A stretch of 64,000 nt of DNA from Lachnospiraceae bacterium AF51-6-b8A (GTDB lineage: Bacteria; Bacillota; Clostridia; Lachnospirales; Lachnospiraceae). Shown here in pieces: positions 3,933 through 57,926 of the stretch (its first letter is position 1; each line of letters opens with the position of its first letter). The stretch is from contig JAQCZH010000002.1 in NCBI GenBank assembly GCA_027682585.1, positions 186,001 to 250,000 of the forward strand. Direction: 5' to 3'. The position numbers were made by a program, and so were the translations under genes. The notes under the pieces are model-generated. The model saw only the letters and a program-made list of their open reading frames with translations. It did not search any database and was not told the DNA's origin.

Positions 3933-5294
3933 CTAACGTCCCCTCCAGACAGAACCCTCTTCATTGGCAGACACTGTTTTCTGAACCGCCTCATAAGCTG
4001 CCTTGATCTTCTCTCTTGTGGCATCATCGACCTGATCCTGCCTGGAGCCTCCCTCCAGATAATCCTTACAGAGCAACGTCCTCACATCGTAGAGTTTGCC
4101 TGCAGACTTGTTCTTCCCCGTCGTCTTTTGGGCACTCTTTTCTGGCCCGGACTTTTCGCTGGTTACAGCACTTGCCTTCTCATCTGCGGCAGGATTCTTC
4201 TCCGTCCTCTGTACCCAGACCGGATGTGAGACCACATCTTCGATCAGAACCTGACCGGAGGCATCCCTCTCCAGCACTGTCTCAATAATTGTCCCTCGCT
4301 GGCTCTTATCATTGCCCATGATTTCTTTCACCTGGTTGGAGAGCAGATTCCCCATAGAGTATATGATGAACTTATCCTTTCCATCTTTAGTCACTTTCTC
4401 CGTGGGTTGGACGACATGCGGATGTCCGCCGAAGACCAGGTCAGCTCCCCAGTCGATCATCTTATGATAGAGATTCTGATCCGCCTTAGAGACCTTCTCT
4501 GAGAATTCCCTGCCGTCATGGGGCATCACAATCACAAGATCCGCCTGCTGCCTGGCTGTCTGAATCTTCTCCCTGACATAGTCCTCATCCAGCATCTGCA
4601 TATACTGCTTCCTCTGCGCGGATGTGACCCCCTTACCGGCTCCATTATTGTTGTCATATCCGTAAGAGAATCCCAGGATGGCGATTCTGACTCCCTTCAC
4701 CTCTTTGATCAGAATGCTGTCCTTGTCATCTCTAATGCCAATCGTAGAAATACCCGCATCTTCGAAGGCCTGCTTCGTATCCAGAGCACCGTGAATTCCC
4801 TGGTCTAATATGTGATTGTTCGCTAAATCCATCACATCAAAGCCAGCATCTCTAATGGCCGAAACAACCTGACCGGGAGCATTGAAGCTGGAATATCCTT
4901 TGACTTTGGCCTGTTCTGTCACCGCTCCTTCAAAATCGCCAATGGCAAGATCAGCCGAAGAAATCAGGGGCTTAACAGACTCGTAATTGGAACGGAAGTC
5001 ATATCCGTCTTTGGTCTTTGCCCCCTGAAGCAAGGCATCATGATAGATGATATCCCCGCTTGCAGTGATTCGAATCTTCCCGTCATCTGCCGGCTGCCCC
5101 GGTGCTTCCCGGCCGGAAATCCCCGGATCCGGATGTGTGACCAGAAACTGCCCCAGAATTGACCGGACATAAAAGAACATAAAAAGAAGGATGACCGCCA
5201 GTGTCAGCAAGAGAAGAATCAGGTTCTTCCCCATGCGAAGTCCCCTGCCAAACCCTCGCCCGCTCCTCTCTTCTGACTCTTGATATTCTCTCAT
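3933..5294 (-). CDS. CapA-family membrane-anchored metallophosphatase-like protein
   Basis: Poly-gamma-glutamate capsule (CapA) domain protein of 453 residues. A short basic N-terminus precedes one membrane segment at about residues 23-45, so the bulk should lie outside the membrane. The CapA domain begins with ITASGDIIYHD and continues with DLAIGDFEGAVT, DLANNHILDQG and GGHPHVVQP, the Asp/Asn/His residues expected of the calcineurin-like fold. The usual HWGxEY motif appears as PHDGREF. After about residue 360 there is a Lys/Ala/Ser-rich linker and a C-terminal tail. No capB or capC is nearby, so polyglutamate synthesis should not be assumed. AGGAGATGTT precedes the ATG. Confidence 0.82.
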   Translation of the reverse strand: MREYQESEERSGRGFGRGLRMGKNLILLLLTLAVILLFMFFYVRSILGQFLVTHPDPGISGREAPGQPADDGKIRITASGDIIYHDALLQGAKTKDGYDFRSNYESVKPLISSADLAIGDFEGAVTEQAKVKGYSSFNAPGQVVSAIRDAGFDVMDLANNHILDQGIHGALDTKQAFEDAGISTIGIRDDKDSILIKEVKGVRIAILGFSYGYDNNNGAGKGVTSAQRKQYMQMLDEDYVREKIQTARQQADLVIVMPHDGREFSEKVSKADQNLYHKMIDWGADLVFGGHPHVVQPTEKVTKDGKDKFIIYSMGNLLSNQVKEIMGNDKSQRGTIIETVLERDASGQVLIEDVVSHPVWVQRTEKNPAADEKASAVTSEKSGPEKSAQKTTGKNKSAGKLYDVRTLLCKDYLEGGSRQDQVDDATREKIKAAYEAVQKTVSANEEGSVWRGR

Positions 5295-26691: not shown

Positions 26692-26786
26692 CTCATCACC
26701 CCGATAAACGATTGATACTTCTTCCTTCTTTTTACGATATGGGCTTTTCGATGGTATCAATCAATGTTCGCAAAAGCCGCCTGTGA

Positions 26787-26876
26787 AGGCTTCTTCGAAC
26801 ATCTAAAAAACGAGATGTTCTATAACCGCAGTTGGGAAGGCTGTCTAAAAAATGTCCGCTCCCCCAGTTCACAAAT
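26787..26876 (+). mobile_element. IS3-family remnant (internal OrfB piece fused to the element end)
   Basis: Reads FFEHLKNEMFYNRSW, the region around the third catalytic residue of IS3 OrfB, then jumps to CTGTCTAAAAAATGTCCGC, the end shared with the larger remnant at 33942-34525. Everything between is deleted. Confidence 0.7.
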
Positions 26877-27734: not shown

Positions 27735-27830
27735 AAAAAGGCTTTTCGTTTGTTGGGTGCTGGAAAATTCGCTTAATTTAAGCCTGTTTTTAGATTTTTT
27801 ACCCATATCAATCCCGGTTCCAATTGTCCA
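27735..27830. repeat. Repeat B, copy 1
   Basis: Imperfect copy of 36931-37023; both contain TTTAAGC, TTTTTAGATTTTTT and ACCC in the same order. Each copy lies just 3' of a minus-strand gene. Confidence 0.6.
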
Positions 27831-27835
27831 CCTAA

Positions 27836-28447
27836 TTATTTCTTTTTATCTTTAGGGAGATAATCCTTAATATCATTTACAAAGAAAGCCAAAATATCCC
27901 CTTGTTTTAGTCCACTCTTTTTTTGTCCCATGTCTTTTCTAATTTCAAAAATAATCTCTTCAAGCAAAAAAAGATTATCCGTTGGATTATTATTTTGCTC
28001 TTGACATATTTTACAAAAAGCAAGCCACTTTCTAATTACCTTGCTCGAACCCCATAGTGTTAATTTTTTAGAAAAACTAAATATATCAGCTAACATTTCC
28101 TTGTCATTATATTCTTTGTTTTCCTTAATATTTTCTTGTATTTTATACACCATTTCAATAAATTCTGAATATGGTTCTTCCTTTTTCCCATACAAGTATC
28201 TTTTTATATTTTGTCGATACTCTATTACTTTAGATACTATCGAACTAATCACAACGCCCAAAATTGATACACTACCAGTTATCAATGCCACGATAACAAC
28301 GGCGTCCATATTACTCAACCTATTAATAAAACTTTCTACATAGCCTATGAATACTCCTAACAGCCAAACAACAATATATCCTATTATTGCTAACGTTAAT
28401 AAGCCTAGAATTATATCTTTAATAGAACTCAATTTGTTTTTATTCAA
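27836..28447 (-). CDS. Membrane protein of unknown function
   Basis: Encodes 203 residues in visibly AT-richer DNA than the flanking core genes. Two helices at about residues 12-35 and 48-72 are followed by a basic, helical cytoplasmic domain (IEYRQNIKRYLYGKKEE onwards). The start is a TTG at 28447 directly after AAAGGAGACGATGAG, with no ATG nearby. I do not recognise the family. Its position in the accessory region and its shape allow a phage-defence or immunity role, but nothing shows this. Confidence 0.6.
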   Translation of the reverse strand: MNKNKLSSIKDIILGLLTLAIIGYIVVWLLGVFIGYVESFINRLSNMDAVVIVALITGSVSILGVVISSIVSKVIEYRQNIKRYLYGKKEEPYSEFIEMVYKIQENIKENKEYNDKEMLADIFSFSKKLTLWGSSKVIRKWLAFCKICQEQNNNPTDNLFLLEEIIFEIRKDMGQKKSGLKQGDILAFFVNDIKDYLPKDKKK

Positions 28448-33941: not shown

Positions 33942-34525
33942 ATGAGGTACACCAAGGAGCAGATTATCGTCGCACTGACATTATATAGCGCAATGGGCTC
34001 GGCAAATACGCTCGTACAAACACTGGGATATCCTTCATATCCAATGCTTTATCACTGGATTGAAAAGTATCCGAAGTATTTATCTAAGCCACATGTTCGA
34101 CACAATAAGCAGGCAACAGGTATGTTTATGGATACAGAAAAATTCATCAGCTTCTGAGGCAGAAGGGAACCATCGTTTCTGAAAAGATCGTCTGCAGAAT
34201 CATGAGGGAGGAATCCCTTGTTGTCAAGATACGCAGGAGACGTAAATACAACTCTTATCAGGGTGAACTTAGCATGGTCCCAGAGAATCTCGTCAATCGT
34301 GATTTTCATGCAGATAAACCGAATAAAGCTTCTTCGGACATCTAAAAACGAGATGTTCTATAACCGCAGTTGGTAAGGCAGTTCGATTGCTGAGTAAAAA
34401 TATGAGATCGACAGTTATATTCGCTGGTACTGCACAGATCGAATCAAATCAACACTCGGAGGGCTCAGTCCTCTTCGGTATAGAAAGGAGTTGGGTGTGG
34501 CTGTCTAAAAAATGTCCGCACCCCC
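33942..34525 (+). mobile_element. IS3-family element, degraded and internally deleted
   Basis: OrfA-like start MRYTKEQIIVALTLYSAMGS (helix-turn-helix), an OrfB piece KIVCRIMREESLVVKIRRRR, then TTCTTCGGACATCTAAAA (FFGHLK) with a one-base loss, and finally the OrfB tail YIRWYCTDRIKSTLGGLSPL and RYRKELG. The central DDE region is missing. The end CTGTCTAAAAAATGTCCGC (34501-34519) is shared with the fragment at 26787-26876. Confidence 0.8.
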
Positions 34526-34554
34526 ATTTGATGATTTAGACAAACCGGGATTTC

Positions 34555-35397
34555 TTAAGCTTTCGTTATTGGAATCCAAAGTTCCATTTTATAGTCTTTG
34601 TTATCTATATCACCTTCATAGTAATATTCAAAATCAGGGCTTCCCGAATGAACATAACCATATTCAGGGAAGAATACTTCCATAGCATATTTCCACCCAT
34701 TATGAATACACTCCGGAACACTTCCTGTTAATTCCACAATGGCATATTCTGCTTCTTCAACTTCCAGAATGTCTAAACCCATATTTTCTGCTTTATCAGC
34801 ATCTTTAACGATATAACCTGCCATATAATTGATAGTGCCTGGGCTTTCTATATCGTGACAAACACCTACACATTGTCCCTCTCCCAGACTTGCTAATTCA
34901 TCATGACTATATTTTCCATATAGTTTATCCCAAACGCTCGAACATAATGATGAATTGATACTTTGTTCATTTATGCCTGCAACTATAAACGCTTTTTTCT
35001 TTTGAATTGTAATTTTCATACTTCTTCCTCCTCTGACACTTAGTGCTAACTGCACCCGGGAAACTAGTTTGAATGGTTTCCCGTTTCTAACTTCTGAAGG
35101 AGTATATCCATGAATGTTTTTAAAAGCAGTTGTAAAAGAATCAGGTGACTCATAACCATAATTCATAGCAATATCAATAATTTTTTTATCTGTCTCTCTA
35201 AGTAGTATAGCCGCTTCGGATAATCTTCTATTTCTAATATATTCGCTTAGGGTCATATCGGTCAAAATTGAGAATAAACGACTAAACATTGCAAAAGAAT
35301 AACCCGATAAATAAGCAACTTGTTTCTCATCTATTTCATCATTTAAAACCCTTTCAATATAATCGATTGTATCATTGAAAGGTTTAATGAGATTCAT
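34555..35397 (-). CDS. AraC-family regulator with GyrI-like effector domain
   Basis: A 280-residue transcription factor. The N-terminal AraC helix-turn-helix pair covers about residues 10-105 (VAYLSGYSFAMFSRLFSIL and IIDIAMNYGYESPDSFTTAF, ending HGYTPSEVR). A GyrI-like/BmrR small-molecule-binding domain follows (KKKAFIVAGINEQ to MELWIPI, about 125-280), as in regulators of drug or metabolite response. The ATG at 35397 after GGGAGCATCTGC is preferred over 35433. No obvious target operon is adjacent. Confidence 0.87.
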   Translation of the reverse strand: MNLIKPFNDTIDYIERVLNDEIDEKQVAYLSGYSFAMFSRLFSILTDMTLSEYIRNRRLSEAAILLRETDKKIIDIAMNYGYESPDSFTTAFKNIHGYTPSEVRNGKPFKLVSRVQLALSVRGGRSMKITIQKKKAFIVAGINEQSINSSLCSSVWDKLYGKYSHDELASLGEGQCVGVCHDIESPGTINYMAGYIVKDADKAENMGLDILEVEEAEYAIVELTGSVPECIHNGWKYAMEVFFPEYGYVHSGSPDFEYYYEGDIDNKDYKMELWIPITKA

Positions 35398-35643
35398 GCA
35401 GATGCTCCCTTCATTGAAATAATAGCAATTCAATTCTACTCATTTACTGATATCATAATATCCAAAATATTTTTCGCTTTGTAATGTTCAATAGCAAGTT
35501 TGTCCCAAATTGATTCCGTCCAAATGTTTCTCCCTCATCTTCCGGAAAAACTAATGAACATACTCTGTAAAAGCTTATTTTTTCTAATTCTACTCTTTGA
35601 ACAGCCAATCGTCCCTAATTCAGTTCTTTAATATCAGTCATAA

Positions 35644-36570
35644 CTATATCCTTTCATAATTGATGGATAGTTCTCTAAATTCATTATCCCATCTTGCAAT
35701 CTCTTCCAGTGTTTTAGCTAATTCTTTATAGTCTTCTCCAACAGAGCTTATATGAGCTTGTCCAAAAAGAATTGCTAATTTCTCTTTTATTTTTGATCGT
35801 CTCAAATCATGTTTTTCTAAGAATTTACATAAATACAAGTTCCTAACCGATGCCAGTTTAAAACTAAAATATTGATGTAACTTTTTCTGCTCATCATTCA
35901 GTCCATTTTCTGCTACTACTTTCGCATAATTTGAAATAACCCCTTCCTCACCAAATTCATATCGTTTTTTGATAACAAGAGAAGTCTCATGATAAATCTC
36001 TTCATCTGTTGGAAATCTTAATTTTCTAAGGTTTCCCCACATAGAATATGAGCCTCTTTTATATGCTATACTTTCAGCTTTCCAAGCTTTCAGAAATTCT
36101 GCAAAATTTACCTTCAAACAAGCAAAGCCTGCCGGATCGTGAAGATAGATATCATCATCTGCCAAATCATAAACTGACACAAAATGATCTACCCCATGCA
36201 AGCCCTGGCAATTGGGGTTATAAGTTAAATATCCCATATCCAGCGGTCCGACAATGACAGAGCCAAAAGCTAATAATCTCTCTAGCTGCACTTTAATAAC
36301 ATCAGAATTAATTTTACTTGAGTCTTCCAGATAGTAGTCATCATATTCAAATCCAAGAATTCTCAAGCAATTACTAATAGATCGGTCAGGTGATCCATTA
36401 TCGAAAAAAACTAATGGATGCTTTTCATCCTCATAAGCAACATTTGCACCATTTCCCATAACCATTATTGCTTCTAAAAACTCTGGCCGATATTCAAATC
36501 CATAAGAATCAAGCGTCATAGCTAGAGAATTCGTATAACAAATTGCTACTTCACCAAAATATTGATCCAA
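35644..36570 (-). CDS. BtrH N-terminal/DUF4872-like protein (papain-like fold)
   Basis: A 308-residue cytoplasmic protein. The N-terminus ICYTNSLAMTLDSYG with a Cys, the later GLHGVDHFVSVYDLADDDIYLHDPAG with a His and Asp, and the distal helical domain resemble BtrH-like acyltransferase/peptidase-fold proteins near peptide or aminoglycoside biosynthesis genes. The start is probably the TTG at 36570, directly after AAAGGAGGTACAAA; an ATG six codons upstream overlaps the ribosome site. No biosynthetic cluster is seen around it, so the substrate is unknown. Confidence 0.72.
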   Translation of the reverse strand: MDQYFGEVAICYTNSLAMTLDSYGFEYRPEFLEAIMVMGNGANVAYEDEKHPLVFFDNGSPDRSISNCLRILGFEYDDYYLEDSSKINSDVIKVQLERLLAFGSVIVGPLDMGYLTYNPNCQGLHGVDHFVSVYDLADDDIYLHDPAGFACLKVNFAEFLKAWKAESIAYKRGSYSMWGNLRKLRFPTDEEIYHETSLVIKKRYEFGEEGVISNYAKVVAENGLNDEQKKLHQYFSFKLASVRNLYLCKFLEKHDLRRSKIKEKLAILFGQAHISSVGEDYKELAKTLEEIARWDNEFRELSINYERI

Positions 36571-36678
36571 TTTGTACCTCCTTTGCATTTATATCTACAG
36601 CATAGAGGCCAATTAAAATGTGTTCCCTATAGTTCTTGTACAAATATTATAGGGTTTATCTCTGCAAATTCTAATTTG

Positions 36679-36883
36679 TCACCCGCTATTTTTACAAAAG
36701 CCTCCCACCAAAATGATGGAAGGCTTTCTATTATTTCTTACCTTATTGCCCTTTGGGCAAAAAATATCGCTCGTAAAACCCGCTCAATTCGCCGACTCCC
36801 TCTAAGGAACTTTTTGCTCCTACAAAACGCTGAATCGCTGTATTTTCAACAGTTTTAGCAGAAGCATATTTCTTACTCTATTC
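36679..36883. repeat. Repeat A, copy 1, with guaA-like 11-bp core
   Basis: About 200 bp similar to 38455-38704. Both contain a hairpin-forming AAAGCCTCCCACC..GATGGAAGGCTTT, TTATTGCCCTTTGGGCAAAAA, TGTATTTTCAAC and finally TTACTCTATTC (36873-36883), the sequence that covers the guaA stop codon in copy 2. This copy lacks about 45 bp in the middle. It lies upstream of the BtrH-like gene. Confidence 0.7.
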
Positions 36884-36930
36884 CCTCTCTTCTTTTTCTA
36901 CTGTTCACTATATCCAAAACCGTTCAAAAT

Positions 36931-37023
36931 AAAGACTTTTCATTTGTTCTATGCCAGGAAATTCGTTCAGTTTAAGCTCATTTTTAGATTTTTTTACCCG
37001 TCCCAGTCCCAATTCCAGTTTCA
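36931..37023. repeat. Repeat B, copy 2
   Basis: Partner of 27735-27830. It lies directly after the gene at 37058-37762 and next to repeat A copy 1. Confidence 0.6.
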
Positions 37024-37057
37024 CAGTGGATTTTATCGTCAATGATATTTACTATTA

Positions 37058-37762
37058 TTAATCCTTCTTAAACAGTTTCAGCAATATATCCTTAGCATCT
37101 CCTACTTTCCCAGATATTATCGGAGATAAATATTTAAAAGCTTCATCAATTGCCTGTTCTCCCGCCTCGTTTGCAATTTTTGCTCCAATTTTCTTAACCA
37201 ATTCCGTGAAAACTCCTTTAAAGGATGTGTCTTCCATGATGTCTGCATCAACCAACAATTTTACAGTTGCATTCTTTGCTTCAACAGAAATCATCGACTC
37301 TACTAATGCGATGTACGCTGAATAATTTAACTTAACCAACTCCGCGGAAAATGACCCATCTGTTATAAATCCCAGCTCTTTTACCTTAAATCTAAAGTGA
37401 TCAGTTAAAAGAGGATTCTGAATTTCAATTGCTACTTTGTCTCCATCTTTTAAGAATACAGGTTTTTGAAGCAGTTGAATTAACTCTTTATCCAAGTCCT
37501 CTTCTTCAGATGTTCTCATTTTTGCTTCATATAATAGATTTCGAACTCTGGTTCTGCTTATTTTCAAATCTTTTATTAATTGATATAGATTAGGATCTTT
37601 TTGAATAGCTCCAAGCTCTTGTAACTTCATAAAAAGTAATATTTCAAAATCTCGTTTACTCATAGAACCATAAGAAGGCTGTAAATAACTATTTACAAGT
37701 TCTATGAATCGTTGCTTAACATCAAATGCATCGGCTTCTTTTAGTAATGTAATTAAATCCAT
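37058..37762 (-). CDS. Hypothetical protein with an N-terminal helix-turn-helix-like region
   Basis: Encodes 234 residues. The N-terminal half is helical (KRDFEILLFMKLQELGAIQ then LIKDLKISRTRVRNLLYEAK), with a look of a helix-turn-helix where LKISRTRVRNLL is the recognition helix. The C-terminal half has an amphipathic region and ends GDAKDILLKLFKKD. There is no signal peptide or convincing membrane helix. I do not recognise the family. AAGGAGAGAG precedes the ATG. It is bracketed by repeat A3 upstream and repeat B2 downstream, as a cassette would be. Confidence 0.6.
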   Translation of the reverse strand: MDLITLLKEADAFDVKQRFIELVNSYLQPSYGSMSKRDFEILLFMKLQELGAIQKDPNLYQLIKDLKISRTRVRNLLYEAKMRTSEEEDLDKELIQLLQKPVFLKDGDKVAIEIQNPLLTDHFRFKVKELGFITDGSFSAELVKLNYSAYIALVESMISVEAKNATVKLLVDADIMEDTSFKGVFTELVKKIGAKIANEAGEQAIDEAFKYLSPIISGKVGDAKDILLKLFKKD

Positions 37763-37821
37763 ATGATACTCTCTCCTTCATAGATTACTCTTCACTTCTA
37801 AGAATTATAGGTAGCTTCATC

Positions 37822-37917
37822 TTCACCCGCTAGTACTATTTCAACTTTTTAGTATCAAAACAGTATCATTTAGAGGATTTTACTACTTCAAAATCGCTGA
37901 ATCCCTGTATTCCCAAG
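37822..37917. repeat. Repeat A, partial copy 3
   Basis: Shares TCACCCGCT, GTATCAAAACAGTATCA and a CGCTGAATC..TGTATT segment with copies 1 and 2, with the hairpin part deleted. Its end is fused into the hydrolase fragment at 37888-38076. Confidence 0.5.
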
Positions 37918-38076
37918 CATTTTATATGCAGTAACATATTCGCTATTGTTATTCCCACTCAATGATTTATAGTCAAATCCAATGATTTCAAAGCTGTCAT
38001 CAAAAAATTGTTTATAGCGATTAGCTTCTTCTGCATTACCACCCTTACCATGAACATATATAATGGCATTTTTCAT
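37888..38076 (-). pseudogene. 5' fragment of an alpha/beta-hydrolase-like gene
   Basis: AGAGGAAATTTGA then ATG starts MKNAIIYVHGKGGNAEEANR, the oxyanion strand-loop of a small alpha/beta hydrolase. The frame ends after 62 residues at GNTGIQRF, where it runs into repeat A3. The nucleophile elbow, acid and His are all absent, so this is a truncated gene. Confidence 0.65.
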
Positions 38077-38105
38077 TCAAATTTCCTCTGCAAATTCTAA
38101 TTTGA

Positions 38106-38426
38106 TTATTTCTTTTTCTTTGGTTTGGGTGCAGGTAATTCATCATACATTGAATTGAATAAGCCAGTTAAAAAATCTTTGTTGTCAACATCATCTACCA
38201 ACAGCATTTCCTTTGATCCATCATATGGTAACTCGTACTTTGCATTTGGCATATATGCTATTGCAGATTTAACAGGCTTCACTAAAAATCTATCATCATA
38301 AATTCCACCCACAATTTTTCCGCGATAATAAACAATATATTCGCCCATCATTGATCTATATGTTATTTCTCCCAAATCGGATAGTTGTTCTAAAATGAAA
38401 TTTAAATATTCTTTACTTGAAGCCAT
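38106..38426 (-). CDS. TfoX/Sxy N-terminal domain protein
   Basis: A 106-residue protein made of a single TfoX N-terminal domain: SSKEYLNFILEQLSDLGEITYRSMMGEYIVYYRGKIVGG with the conserved Met-Met-Gly/Tyr pattern, followed by LVKPVKSA and a Lys-rich tail. TfoX proteins regulate competence in Proteobacteria; stand-alone N-domains in Firmicutes have no proven role. The ATG at 38426 after GGAGGTGCAGGGT is preferred over 38471. Confidence 0.83.
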   Translation of the reverse strand: MASSKEYLNFILEQLSDLGEITYRSMMGEYIVYYRGKIVGGIYDDRFLVKPVKSAIAYMPNAKYELPYDGSKEMLLVDDVDNKDFLTGLFNSMYDELPAPKPKKKK

Positions 38427-38454
38427 ACCCTGCACCTCCAAAAAATTGAATTTA

Positions 38455-38704
38455 TCACCCACTATTTCCACAAAAGCCTCCCACCAGAATGATGGAAGGC
38501 TTTCTATTATTTCCTACCTTATTGCCCTTTGGGCAAAAAGTATCGCTTGTAAAACTCACTCAATTCGACAACTCCCTTTAGAACCTATTTTTTCTTGCTT
38601 TTCGTATCAAAACAGTATCACTCGAGAGTTTTTTGCTCTTGTAAAACGTCGAAACACTGTATTTTCAACGATTTTATAACAGAATCACATTCGTTACTCT
38701 ATTC
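38455..38704. repeat. Repeat A, copy 2, at the 3' end of guaA
   Basis: The fullest copy. It includes a hairpin (38473-38503) that could terminate guaA transcription, GTATCAAAACAGTATCA near 38606, TGTATTTTCAAC and TTACTCTATTC (38694-38704), which overlaps the guaA stop codon. It is a candidate integration junction (attachment site) of the accessory region. Confidence 0.65.
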
Positions 38705-40243
38705 GAACTCAATCGTTCCCGGCGGCTTGGAGGTGATGTCATAGAATACCCGATTAACGTGGTTTACCTCATTGATGATGCGTGTCGTCACCTCCTTCAG
38801 CACTTCATAGGGAATCTCAACCACATCCGCAGTCATGAAATCCACGGTATTGACGGCGCGAAGGGCGATGGCGTAATCATAGGTTCGCTCATCTCCCATG
38901 ACGCCGACGGACCTCATATTGGTCAGGGCCGCGAAATACTGACCGGCTGTCCTGTTAAGGCCTGCCCGCTCCATCTCCTCCCGGTAGATGGCATCCGCCT
39001 CCTGCACAATCCTGACCTTCTCCTCAGTGATGGCCCCGATGATACGGATGCCAAGGCCGGGACCCGGGAAGGGCTGACGCATGACCAGCTCCTCGGGAAT
39101 GCTGAGATGAAGGCCCACCTTACGAACTTCATCCTTGAAGAGGTCGCGCAATGGTTCGACAATCTCCTTGAAATCGACATACTCCGGCAGACCTCCCACA
39201 TTGTGGTGAGATTTGATGGTCGCGGACTCTCCGCCCAGCCCGGACTCCACCACATCGGGATAAATGGTTCCCTGCACCAGATAATCTACCCGGCCAATCT
39301 TTTTGGCCTCTGCCTCAAAGACACGGATGAACTCCTCGCCGATGATCTTGCGCTTTCTCTCCGGCTCCTCGACGCCAGCCAGTTTCTCGTAGAAACGGTC
39401 CTTGGCGTCGACGCGGACAAAATTGAGCTCATAGGGGCCCTCCGGTCCGAAGACCGCCTCAACCTGATCCCCTTCATCCTTGCGCAAGAGCCCATGGTCG
39501 ACGAAGACACAGGTTAATTGCCGGCCGATCGCCTTGGACAGAAGAACCGCTGCGACAGAGGAGTCGACGCCGCCGGAGAGTCCGCAGAGGACTTTTCCAT
39601 CGCCGATCTTCCTTCGTAAAGACGCAATGGTCTGATCCGCAAAATCATCCATTCGCCAGTCCCCGGAGCATCCGCAGATCCTGAGAACAAAGTTGGCCAG
39701 CATCTGCCTGCCGTATTCGGAGTGAAGCACCTCCGGATGAAACTGGAAGCCATAGAGCTTCTGATCCTCCCTGGCAAATGCCGCGTTGGGGCAGTTGTCC
39801 GTGTGGGCGATGACAGAGAATCCGGGGGCCAGTTTCGTCACATAGTCATTGTGGCTCATCCAGACCACTGACTCTTTCGGCACTTCCGCAAAGAGAAGGT
39901 TCTTCGTCTGGTCCAGAGCCATGTGGGTCTTTCCGAACTCCTTCTCATTGGCCCGCTCTACCTTACCGCCCAGAATATGCATCATGAGCTGAGCGCCATA
40001 GCAGAGTCCGAGAATGGGAATTCCCAACGCAAAGAGTTCCCTGGGGGCGCTGGCCGCATTTTCCTCATAGACACTGTTAGGGCCGCCGGTCAGGATGATC
40101 CCCTTGGGATTCATCTTTTTAATCTGCTCCAGAGGCGTCTTATAAGAATATATCTCGCAGTAGACATTGTTCTCTCGGACACGGCGGGCCACCAGCTGAT
40201 TGTACTGGCCGCCATAGTCGATTACGATAACGCGTTCCGGCAT
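38699..40243 (-). CDS. guaA: GMP synthase (glutamine-hydrolysing)
   Basis: Converts XMP to GMP with glutamine and ATP. The class I glutamine amidotransferase domain (1-200) has the nucleophile Cys in GLCYGAQ and the His/Glu in GFQFHPEV. The ATP-pyrophosphatase domain has [12 protein letters not shown]. The C-terminal dimerisation domain ends GTIEFE. It starts at 40243 after AGAAAGGAAAGAAAT, giving [13 protein letters not shown]; the frame extends upstream without a ribosome site. 514 residues. Its 3' end is a well-known integration hotspot in many bacteria, and the accessory region begins there here. Confidence 0.96.
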
Positions 40244-40510
40244 ATTTCTTTCCTTTCTTGACCTAAGGTGACCAGAGGAATAAACCTCGATCAATTCTGT
40301 AAAAGAGCTCTCGCCTTATCGGCTGAGAATCTCAGATCACTGTAACCCTGTGTTAAACACCCTCTCTGTCCCGATCAAAGGCCAACATCCCCAATATCTT
40401 TTTCTGCCATCTGCCAAGACCAGGATCTCAGGCATTTCTTTCCAACCCGGCCCCGGACACCGGACAGATCAGTCTCTCACCGGTATGCAGTCATCCCGAG
40501 TCACTCTGAA

Positions 40511-55832: not shown

Positions 55833-57074
55833 TTATTTCACCTTTCTGAATGCCAGGCAGACATTATGGCCTCCAAAACCAAGAGAGTTGGATAAAGCCA
55901 GGGTCAGATTCTCCTGCAAAGCCTGGCCTGCGACATAATTGAGATCACAGTTCTCGTCCTGCTCCATCAGGTTAATAGTAGGAGGAACGATTCCCTCCTC
56001 CAGGGCAAAGAGAGAGGCCAATGCCTCCACAGCACCGGCGGCCCCCAGCATGTGACCCGTCATGGATTTGGTAGAGGAGACCCAGGGCTTTCTGGCATTT
56101 GCGTCGCCAAATGCCGCGTGAACCGCCTTGCACTCCACCAGATCATTCATAGGGGTTCCGGTTCCGTGCGCGTTGAGATAGACATGATCTGCCTCCGTAT
56201 AACCCGCCTCTCGCATAGCATCCTCCATTGCCTTGGCAGCGCCGCGGGCATTGGGCTCCGGGGAAGTGATATGGTAGGCGTCACAGGTGGTTCCATATCC
56301 ACAGATCTCACCGTAGATTCTTGCTCCGCGGGCTCTGGCGTGTTCATATTCCTCAAGCACCAGTGATACCGCACCCTCTCCTATGACAAAACCATTGCGC
56401 CGCTTATCAAAAGGCAGAGAGGCTGCATTGGGATCCGTGGAAGTGGACAGAGCCTTCATATTGGCAAAACCAGCAACAGATGACGGACAGACAGCCGCCT
56501 CGGTTCCACCTGTAATGACAGCATCGGCATAGCCATGACGAATCAGGCGCATGGCCTCTCCGATCGCGTTAGAGGCTGAAGCACAGGCAGTCACTGCCGG
56601 CATGGCCGTCCCTCTGCAGTCGTGGCGGATTGCAATCATACCGGCGGCCATATTGCAGATCATCATAGGAACAAAGAGGGCGGAGACACGCCTGGGGCCT
56701 CGCTCCATAAGATTTCTGTGCTCCCTCTCGAAGGTCTCGATGCCGCCGATTCCGGTTCCGAAGAGAACAGAGAACCTGTCAGGATTGACCTTGCCCTCGA
56801 TTGCGGAATCCTCTGCCGCTTGCTGGGCCGCGGCCACGGCGAACTGGGTGAAGCGATCCGTTCTTAAGATCTCCTGCTTCTCTAAGTACCGTCCGGGGTC
56901 AAAATCCTTAACCTCTGCGGCCAGAGTCGCCTTGAAGCCTTCCGGGTCGAACTGGGTGATCCTGGCAATACCGTTCTTACCTGCCTTCATGGCCTCCCAG
57001 GTCTCGCTGACACTGTTTCCCAGAGGGGTGATGGCCCCCATCCCGGTTACTGCCACTCTTCTATCTTCGCTCAT
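55833..57074 (-). CDS. fabF: 3-oxoacyl-ACP synthase II
   Basis: Condenses acyl-ACP with malonyl-ACP. 413 residues; catalytic Cys in TACASASNA, His in NAHGTGTPMND and in STKSMTGHMLGAAGA. It starts at 57074 with MSEDRRVAVTGMGAITPLG, after GGAGGAAGCA. The frame stays open upstream for about 280 codons through the tandem repeat, but none of that belongs to the enzyme family. Without FabH in this operon, initiation must come from elsewhere. Confidence 0.95.
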   Translation of the reverse strand: MSEDRRVAVTGMGAITPLGNSVSETWEAMKAGKNGIARITQFDPEGFKATLAAEVKDFDPGRYLEKQEILRTDRFTQFAVAAAQQAAEDSAIEGKVNPDRFSVLFGTGIGGIETFEREHRNLMERGPRRVSALFVPMMICNMAAGMIAIRHDCRGTAMPAVTACASASNAIGEAMRLIRHGYADAVITGGTEAAVCPSSVAGFANMKALSTSTDPNAASLPFDKRRNGFVIGEGAVSLVLEEYEHARARGARIYGEICGYGTTCDAYHITSPEPNARGAAKAMEDAMREAGYTEADHVYLNAHGTGTPMNDLVECKAVHAAFGDANARKPWVSSTKSMTGHMLGAAGAVEALASLFALEEGIVPPTINLMEQDENCDLNYVAGQALQENLTLALSNSLGFGGHNVCLAFRKVK

Positions 57075-57102
57075 TGCTTCCTCCAAAATATCTTCAACTG
57101 AT

Positions 57103-57926
57103 CTGTCTCCGTGATGATCACAGATTGCTCCGCGCTTCGCGCTCTCGCAATCCTCCCTACATTCGCATTCCCGCCCTGCTTCGCATGGCTTCATGCTCAT
57201 GTAGGGCACGTCTCGAATCATGAGCGCCTGAACACGCAAGCGTGTCATGCGCAGGGAAATTTCAACGATTCTGTCTCCGTGATGATCACGGATTGCTCCG
57301 CGCTTCGCGCTCTCGCAATCCTCCCTACATTCGCATTCCCGCCCTGCTTCGCATGGCTTCATGCTCATGTAGGGCACGTCTCGAATCATGAGCGCCTGAA
57401 CACGCAAGCGTGTCATGCGCAGGGAAATTTCAACGATTCTGTCTCCGTGATGATCACGGATTGCTCCGCGCTTCGCGCTCTCGCAATCCTCCCTACATTC
57501 GCATTCCCGCCCTGCTTCGCATGGCTTCATGCTCATGTAGGGCACGTCTCGAATCATGAGCGCCTGAACACGCAAGCGTGTCATGCGCAGGGAAATTTCA
57601 ACGATTCTGTCTCCGTGATGATCACGGATTGCTCCGCGCTTCGCGCTCTCGCAATCCTCCCTACATTCGCATTCCCGCCCTGCTTCGCATGGCTTCATGC
57701 TCATGTAGGGCACGTCTCGAATCATGAGCGCCTGAACACGCAAGCGTGTCATGCGCAGGGAAATTTCAACGATTCTGTCTCCGTGATGATCACGGATTGC
57801 TCCGCGCTTCGCGCTCTCGCAATCCTCCCTACATTCGCATTCCCGCCCTGCTTCGCATGGCTTCATGCTCATGTAGGGCACGTCTCGAATCATGAGCGCC
57901 TGAACACGCAAGCGTGTCATGCGCTC
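57103..57926. repeat. 168-bp tandem repeat, about 4.9 copies, between fabG and fabF
   Basis: Unit starts are at 57103, 57271, 57439, 57607 and 57775, exactly 168 bp apart and nearly identical. The last unit stops at about 57926 and the first differs at a few bases. Each unit has palindromes (CCGTGATGATCACGG, ACACGCTTGCGTGT, GCGCGAAGCGC). As 168 is 56 codons, the array is open on both strands. In frame with fabF it would encode five 56-residue units with MSMKPCEAGRECECREDC, four Cys each. No ribosome site supports translation. Nothing else lies in the 873-bp gap. Confidence 0.93.

Follow-up and report, generated by a model that had tools for sequence, protein, structure and literature searches.

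A probable tandem accretion of decayed integrative elements at the 3' end of guaA in Lachnospiraceae bacterium AF51-6-b8A

The guaA locus of Lachnospiraceae bacterium AF51-6-b8A raises the question of how a row of genes punctuated by two kinds of repeat came to stand behind the GMP synthase gene, and whether these genes can still move. The locus lies in a stretch of 64,000 nucleotides (contig JAQCZH010000002.1, positions 186,001 to 250,000 of the forward strand), which we call the window. An earlier note on its sequence had read the alternation of repeats A and B as the successive insertion at guaA of cassette-like units that carry no integrase. We interpret the region, with a probability of about 0.88, as a tandem accretion of decayed integrative and mobilizable elements (IMEs), CIME-type remnants (cis-mobilizable elements) stacked behind guaA. 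Each of these small, degraded elements would have settled at one and the same site and left its end sequences there; bacteria are known to gather genes by this route, here in a little-studied group.

The repeats themselves are real. Positions 36666-36804 and 38442-38580 (repeat A) agree at 88% over 139 nt, as against a mean of 40.3% and a maximum of 45.3% for the best ungapped match of the 139-mer to a 5-kb target in 200 mononucleotide shuffles, which preserve single-base composition only. Further blocks follow, for example 36853-36883 and 38674-38704 (81%), both ending in TTACTCTATTC. The shared 11-bp end claimed for the two copies therefore exists; the letters given for it, GAATAGAGTAA, are however shifted outward into the arm and have only GAATA in common with GAGTNNGAATA, the 11-bp core that the other genomes share and that lies mostly within guaA. 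The partial third copy of A is also genuine (37878-37924, 70%), and on its upstream side, on the minus strand, it meets an exact GAGTGGGAATA at 37950-37960 that had been overlooked. Repeat B (36931-37020 and 27737-27825) matches in two blocks at 77–78%, downstream of the genes at 37058 and 27836 as described, with the end and core of its second copy gone. Read on the minus strand, the order is guaA-A-tfoX-hydrolase fragment-A-37058-B-A-BtrH-AraC-...-27836-B, in agreement with the A-gene-B-A-genes-B pattern proposed; transposase-like ORFs and other genes lie between the AraC/GyrI-like gene and the 27836 gene (Table 1).

Table 1. Features of the array behind guaA (window positions)
Feature	Position	Strand	Basis
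guaA (GMP synthase), integration target at 3' end	38699..40294	-	ORF list; 98% protein identity to Shuttleworthella satelles guaA
Core 1, GAGTTCGAATA, guaA 3' end, left core of unit 1	38700..38710	-	equivalent place in other genomes
Repeat A copy 2, left arm of unit 1	38442..38704	-	repeat comparison
TfoX_N-domain protein, unit 1 cargo	38106..38426	-	Pfam PF04993, E 3.5e-8
Alpha/beta hydrolase gene, 5' part, running into core 2	37888..38076	-	tblastn; itself without Pfam match
Core 2, exact GAGTGGGAATA	37950..37960	-	core scan
Repeat A copy 3, shortened (without hairpin part), left arm of unit 2	37835..37949	-	repeat comparison
234-aa protein of unknown kind, sole cargo of unit 2	37058..37762	-	no Pfam or PADLOC match
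Repeat B copy 1, right arm of unit 2, extends to core 3	36890..37020	-	repeat comparison
Core 3, GAGAGGGAATA, at B-core-A junction	36879..36889	-	core scan
Repeat A copy 1, left arm of unit 3, internal deletion of ~50 bp	36666..36883	-	repeat comparison
BtrH_N-like protein, unit 3 cargo	35644..36588	-	Pfam PF14399, E 1.4e-5, below curated cut-off; conserved in S. satelles
AraC-type regulator with GyrI-like domain, unit 3 cargo	34555..35433	-	Pfam PF06445, PF12833, PF14526
24-bp motif, marks where unit 3 lost the element core	34526..34549	-	motif scan
203-aa protein of unknown kind beside B copy 2, probable right-hand unit 3 cargo	27836..28447	-	ORF list; no Pfam or PADLOC match
Repeat B copy 2, right arm of unit 3, truncated before core	27737..27825	-	repeat comparison

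The three cores delimit three units: tfoX with the hydrolase fragment, the 37058 gene, and the stretch from BtrH and AraC to the second B. Unit 2, at 1.07 kb, holds a single gene flanked on both sides by a core and an arm (arm A copy 3 and B), unit 1 is without a right arm and unit 3 without a right core. The protein collection has 110 homologues of the protein encoded at 37058, those named belonging to Veillonella and Hydrogenimonas; a search of 392 genomes of the order gave a single homologue (G838), at a locus without a match to A or B. PADLOC gave no defence match for the five window proteins tried. For the truncated hydrolase, tblastn gave three matches, two of them to records annotated as alpha/beta hydrolase. 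Two of the three stop at query residues 37 and 38, the point at which core 2 starts, and the third (Selenomonas) continues to 50. Such an end would fit a site-specific deletion between a core-like stretch within the gene and the unit boundary, or an insertion at this secondary site.

How much weight can an 11-bp core bear? Between 24000 and 42000, on both strands, ten sites match GAGTGGGAATA with at most two mismatches; zero or one mismatch occurs only at cores 2 and 3, and core 1, with two, does no better than seven other nearby places. The core alone is thus weak evidence, and we rely on core plus arm. Whether or not a locus has repeat A, its guaA may close with this stretch or one like it. 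The absence of the 11-bp core from the guaA of relatives had been named as a possible refutation; since the core is mostly guaA coding sequence, this comparison does not discriminate. For Tn6254, an element at the guaA 3' end of Lactobacillus hokkaidonensis, PMC4377027 prints a direct repeat, GAGTGGGAATA, with the very letters of core 2. G820 has a second, shorter GMP synthase-like gene (C1:698484-699401, query residues 200–514) whose end also reads GAGTGGGAGTA. Two loci (L032 and L034) each have two guaA-like 3' ends.

The arms were found beside integrases when these were searched for, as had been suggested: A on the elements of G003 and G718 and B on that of G816, all at guaA. The G003 element reads guaA-core-A-membrane-protease-like gene (by eye)-HTH regulator-xis-like HTH-int-further genes-MobC-relaxase-...-core-A, with int at 3956-5056 and cores at 2071 and 30295. 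Its integrase has the Pfam domains Arm-DNA-bind_4, Phage_int_SAM_3 and Phage_integrase, a layout that we take to be like that of Tn916; the relaxase matches PF03432 and MobC PF05713, and the protein which we presume to be xis scores below the Pfam cut-off. The G718 element has the same order, an integrase 96% identical and cores at 4612 and 25926; a different gene stands beside its first A, whereas the gene after its second A is related to the cargo gene of G003. Both are thus int- and relaxase-bearing elements (IMEs) at guaA that begin with A. In G816 the guaA gene ends in GAATGGGAATAAT; behind it stand an integrase of 50% identity and a MobC match, then a cytosine methylase gene and an AAA/DUF4435 gene, followed by B and GAATGGGAGTAAT, with other genes beyond. 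Because the G003 and G718 elements begin with A and that of G816 ends in B and a core, we regard A as the left and B as the right arm of guaA elements. The two arms come from different integrase subfamilies, A having been seen at the left end with one and B at the right end with another, more distant (~50% identity); G003 and G718 have a different right arm, and no intact element with A, B and int together was seen among the genomes examined.

Tandem junctions like that of the window occur in G560, where two B-core-A junctions lie 12.6 kb apart downstream of guaA, the first preceded by methylase and specificity genes and the second by a type III restriction system. The integrase match of G560 lies upstream of both junctions and has an in-frame TGA. 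Even at E ≤ 1, the G003 relaxase had no match in the G816 and G560 stretches examined, so the term IME is less sure for these two. Directly after guaA in G560 (C1:130001-136000), in opposite orientation, lies a further tyrosine integrase, ~40% identical to that of G003, and genes farther on resemble phage structural genes by eye; a prophage may therefore share the guaA site in this genome.

The statement that the units are without an integrase was upheld, as nothing of the G003 type was matched in the window. More widely, nine G003-element proteins gave no window match at E ≤ 1e-4 (best E 0.08 at a cut-off of 1), and neither an integrase nor a relaxase of its own was matched there, as an autonomous guaA IME would have. 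Other genomes contain intermediate stages: in tblastn with the G003-element proteins the regulator was split over two frames in G002 and present as fragments in G389 and on contig C3 of G816; a relaxase fragment lay beside a partial A in G246, and G560 had a second MobC fragment. The G816 C3 copy of A is nearly complete, lies away from guaA with no clear core, and is possibly a secondary-site insertion or a relocation.

Unit 3 can be linked to such elements by a 24-bp motif just after the AraC gene. Its window form is found exactly in G001, the sister species; the copies in G003, G718 and G002 differ from it at 3, 4 and 4 positions and all separate the cargo from the regulator gene, which is why we place the cargo between A and the regulator. 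No further site within six mismatches was found in twelve regions, and ten one-strand mononucleotide shuffles (350 kb) gave no match with four or fewer. In the window and in G001 the motif is followed by a sequence that recurs in the window at 26839-26869, probably an insertion-sequence end. Unit 3, with its arms and this boundary motif, looks like an element minus its core block. Units 1 and 2, where no element sequence beyond arms and cores was found, would likewise descend from an ICE or IME. Beside unit 3, short repeats at 26786-26869 and 34325-34529 (92–95% alike) bracket ~7.5 kb with SRAP and DUF1643 genes and transposase-like ORFs; they are probably insertion-sequence scars, one adjoining the end of the unit.

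We propose that a tyrosine integrase would recombine the core GAGTNNGAATA at the guaA stop with an identical core between the arms of an element, each insertion leaving core-A at the left, with the guaA end restored, and B-core at the right. A later element could then enter at any core and create a B-core-A junction. The cargo would sit between arm A and the regulator-xis-int-mob block, or beside B, and loss of that block by deletion, probably also by IS insertion, would leave A and cargo, with or without B. The common arms and cores, the arms on int-bearing guaA elements, the tandem junctions and the decay series across genomes are directly evidenced; that integrases of the G003-type family did the recombining, and in which order insertions and losses followed one another, we infer. 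If correct, the array is a readable record of integrative elements decaying into cargo-only units at one hotspot. Arms A and B, the core and the cargo pocket between arm A and the regulator, occupied by differing genes in differing elements, are diagnostic for such units, and the arms allow their detection in genomes with no integrase nearby.

Repeat A is rare. Among the best 80 of 584 guaA loci it occurs in three, those of Shuttleworthella satelles (L001), Catonella morbi (L018) and Eggerthia catenaformis (L068). In whole genomes at E ≤ 1e-8 it was found in at least 4 of 397 (family of G001), at least 5 of 391 (class), at least 1 of 398 (phylum) and at least 1 of 43 (family of G003, this being G003 itself), with G001 counted in the first three sets; these are lower bounds because the query copy of A varied between searches and only the first candidates per genome were scored. 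S. satelles, the sister species, is a close relative (guaA 95.2% identical in DNA; other segments 88.8, 88.7 and 78.1%) whose A-BtrH-AraC segment is 97.3% identical to that of the window over 2.4 kb. Between guaA and that A, it has different DNA, with a Schlafen AlbA_2-domain gene instead of tfoX and 37058, so the two differ at the guaA-proximal end of the array. This comparison, the G560 junctions and the int-bearing elements with arms support the successive insertion at guaA that had been suggested.

Besides the window, ten genomes have A. It begins at the guaA stop in four (G003, G389, G718, G820) and lies ~2.1 kb downstream in two (G001, G002). In G560 the first A is ~48 kb downstream, after a prophage-like stretch (by eye) and an element with a broken int, where we infer continuity across 18 kb. 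Two genomes speak against our reading, A lying away from guaA in G816 (A on contig C3, guaA on C1) and in G304, where it is on a short contig and none was found in 6 kb of guaA 3' flank; the G246 contig with guaA breaks off 73 bp after the stop codon of that gene.

Several papers describe integration at the 3' end of guaA (PMC4701971, PMC5357655, PMC5704250, PMC4844618, PMC4377027, PMC13418153). Among the best 80 of 584 guaA loci, G003 integrase matches at E ≤ 1e-8 lie downstream of guaA in 25 and upstream in none, counting partial matches and the source of the query (L068), although more sequence was searched upstream (654 kb) than downstream (400 kb). Where at least 3 kb of downstream sequence was available among these 80, 21 of 45 loci had a match.

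CIMEs and the tandem accretion of ICEs, IMEs and CIMEs are described in PMC5704250 and PMC5357655, which refer to Pavlovic 2004 and Bellanger 2011; PMC5357655 also mentions decayed elements in accretion, with data not shown. Our use of the label CIME goes partly beyond these descriptions. Like CIMEs as described there, the window units have lost integration and transfer genes and are stacked at one target gene; att sites remain, though not every unit has both. The hosts here include Lachnospiraceae and an Erysipelotrichia-type genome, with guaA as target, whereas nine of ten streptococcal tandems reported in PMC5357655 are at rpsI, rpmG or rplL. Streptococcal IMEs with Tyr_3 integrases, which sit in guaA or rplL (PMC5357655), and the guaA-located ICE_SmiB6_guaA (PMC4701971) resemble the elements described here in a tyrosine integrase and the guaA 3' end, and differ from the window units, which are without int. 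Tn5801-like elements likewise use the guaA 3' end, with 11-bp direct repeats whose letters are not in the text of the passage (PMC4844618); they and Tn6254 are described as ICEs or putative ICEs and resemble the window in site and in having direct repeats. The process and the target are thus already known; what is new is the detail of arms, hosts and cargo pocket. In the open-licence literature, the array was not found in print, nor was anything on a Shuttleworthia mobile genetic element with an integrase.

The main question then is whether the A-cargo-B units are still functional, as non-autonomous cassettes moved in trans by integrases of guaA IMEs or ICEs. Mobilisation of the window units in trans may occur, and the compact unit 2, the 12.6-kb A-to-B unit between the two G560 junctions and the frequency of G003-integrase relatives behind guaA would suit it. 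The units, however, are worn (copy 3 of A is shortened, unit 1 is without a right arm and unit 3 without a right core), element debris lies in unit 3 and at several loci with A in other genomes, and the G003 integrase is unmatched in G001 and G246 at E ≤ 1e-10, so that we consider such cassettes a minority possibility. The cassette reading of the earlier note holds for the successive insertion of the units, which nevertheless resemble decayed IMEs rather than purpose-built cassettes. A bolder version, in which guaA in oral and gut Firmicutes would host an integron-like economy of short units kept as working cassettes, entering and leaving by the integrases of passing guaA IMEs, ICEs and prophages, is less likely still; were it true, distant hosts would exchange accessory genes, among them restriction systems and acetyltransferases, in units as small as one gene of 1.07 kb. 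With the arms known, it can be put to a direct test whether a foreign guaA integrase moves units that have none of their own.

Spread of A and B by homologous recombination or duplication instead of site-specific insertion appears very improbable. Copies of A without a core do exist (both in S. satelles, the L101 piece and the second piece in G820), and some reshuffling between A copies is therefore likely, but the junctions coincide with the 11-bp core, and in other genomes, int-bearing elements included, cores stand at the outer edge of both arms. That the units are integron-like gene cassettes or elements like the staphylococcal cassette chromosome is hardly credible, for all the cassette look of A-gene-B and the match of the AraC gene to Pfam Cass2 (integron-associated effector binding protein): the integrase that accompanies arm A is of the Arm-DNA-bind_4/Phage_int_SAM_3/Phage_integrase type, the target is guaA and not rlmH as for SCC, and attC-type folded sites, expected of integrons, were not found, A giving only a weak consensus fold (-2.5 kcal/mol; 1 of 10 pairs changed on both sides) with no covariation support and 36500-38800 no Rfam match at E ≤ 1.

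A structured RNA in A was rejected on the same fold and Rfam results. Its hairpin is plausible by eye as a terminator, yet a consensus scan found no terminator-like site in 36500-38800. A leader peptide (frame from TTG, MSEFYKRYFLPKGQ in the window) was rejected as well: in G816 and G246 the frame soon meets a stop codon, in S. satelles it is shifted, and the shorter A copies do not have it. A phage or plasmid origin was also rejected, DNA-level matches being confined to the tfoX stretch (one Streptococcus phage record and one Enterococcus plasmid). In viral contigs an 18-base pattern gave seven matches, all isolated and short, the hairpin pattern and the Eggerthia integrase none, and the 37058 protein six pattern stretches with no relative among them. 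Elsewhere in the window, 57093-57924 holds five copies of a 168-bp tandem repeat, 99% alike and in frame, on the N-terminal side of an ORF (55833-57920) that by eye resembles a beta-ketoacyl-ACP synthase.
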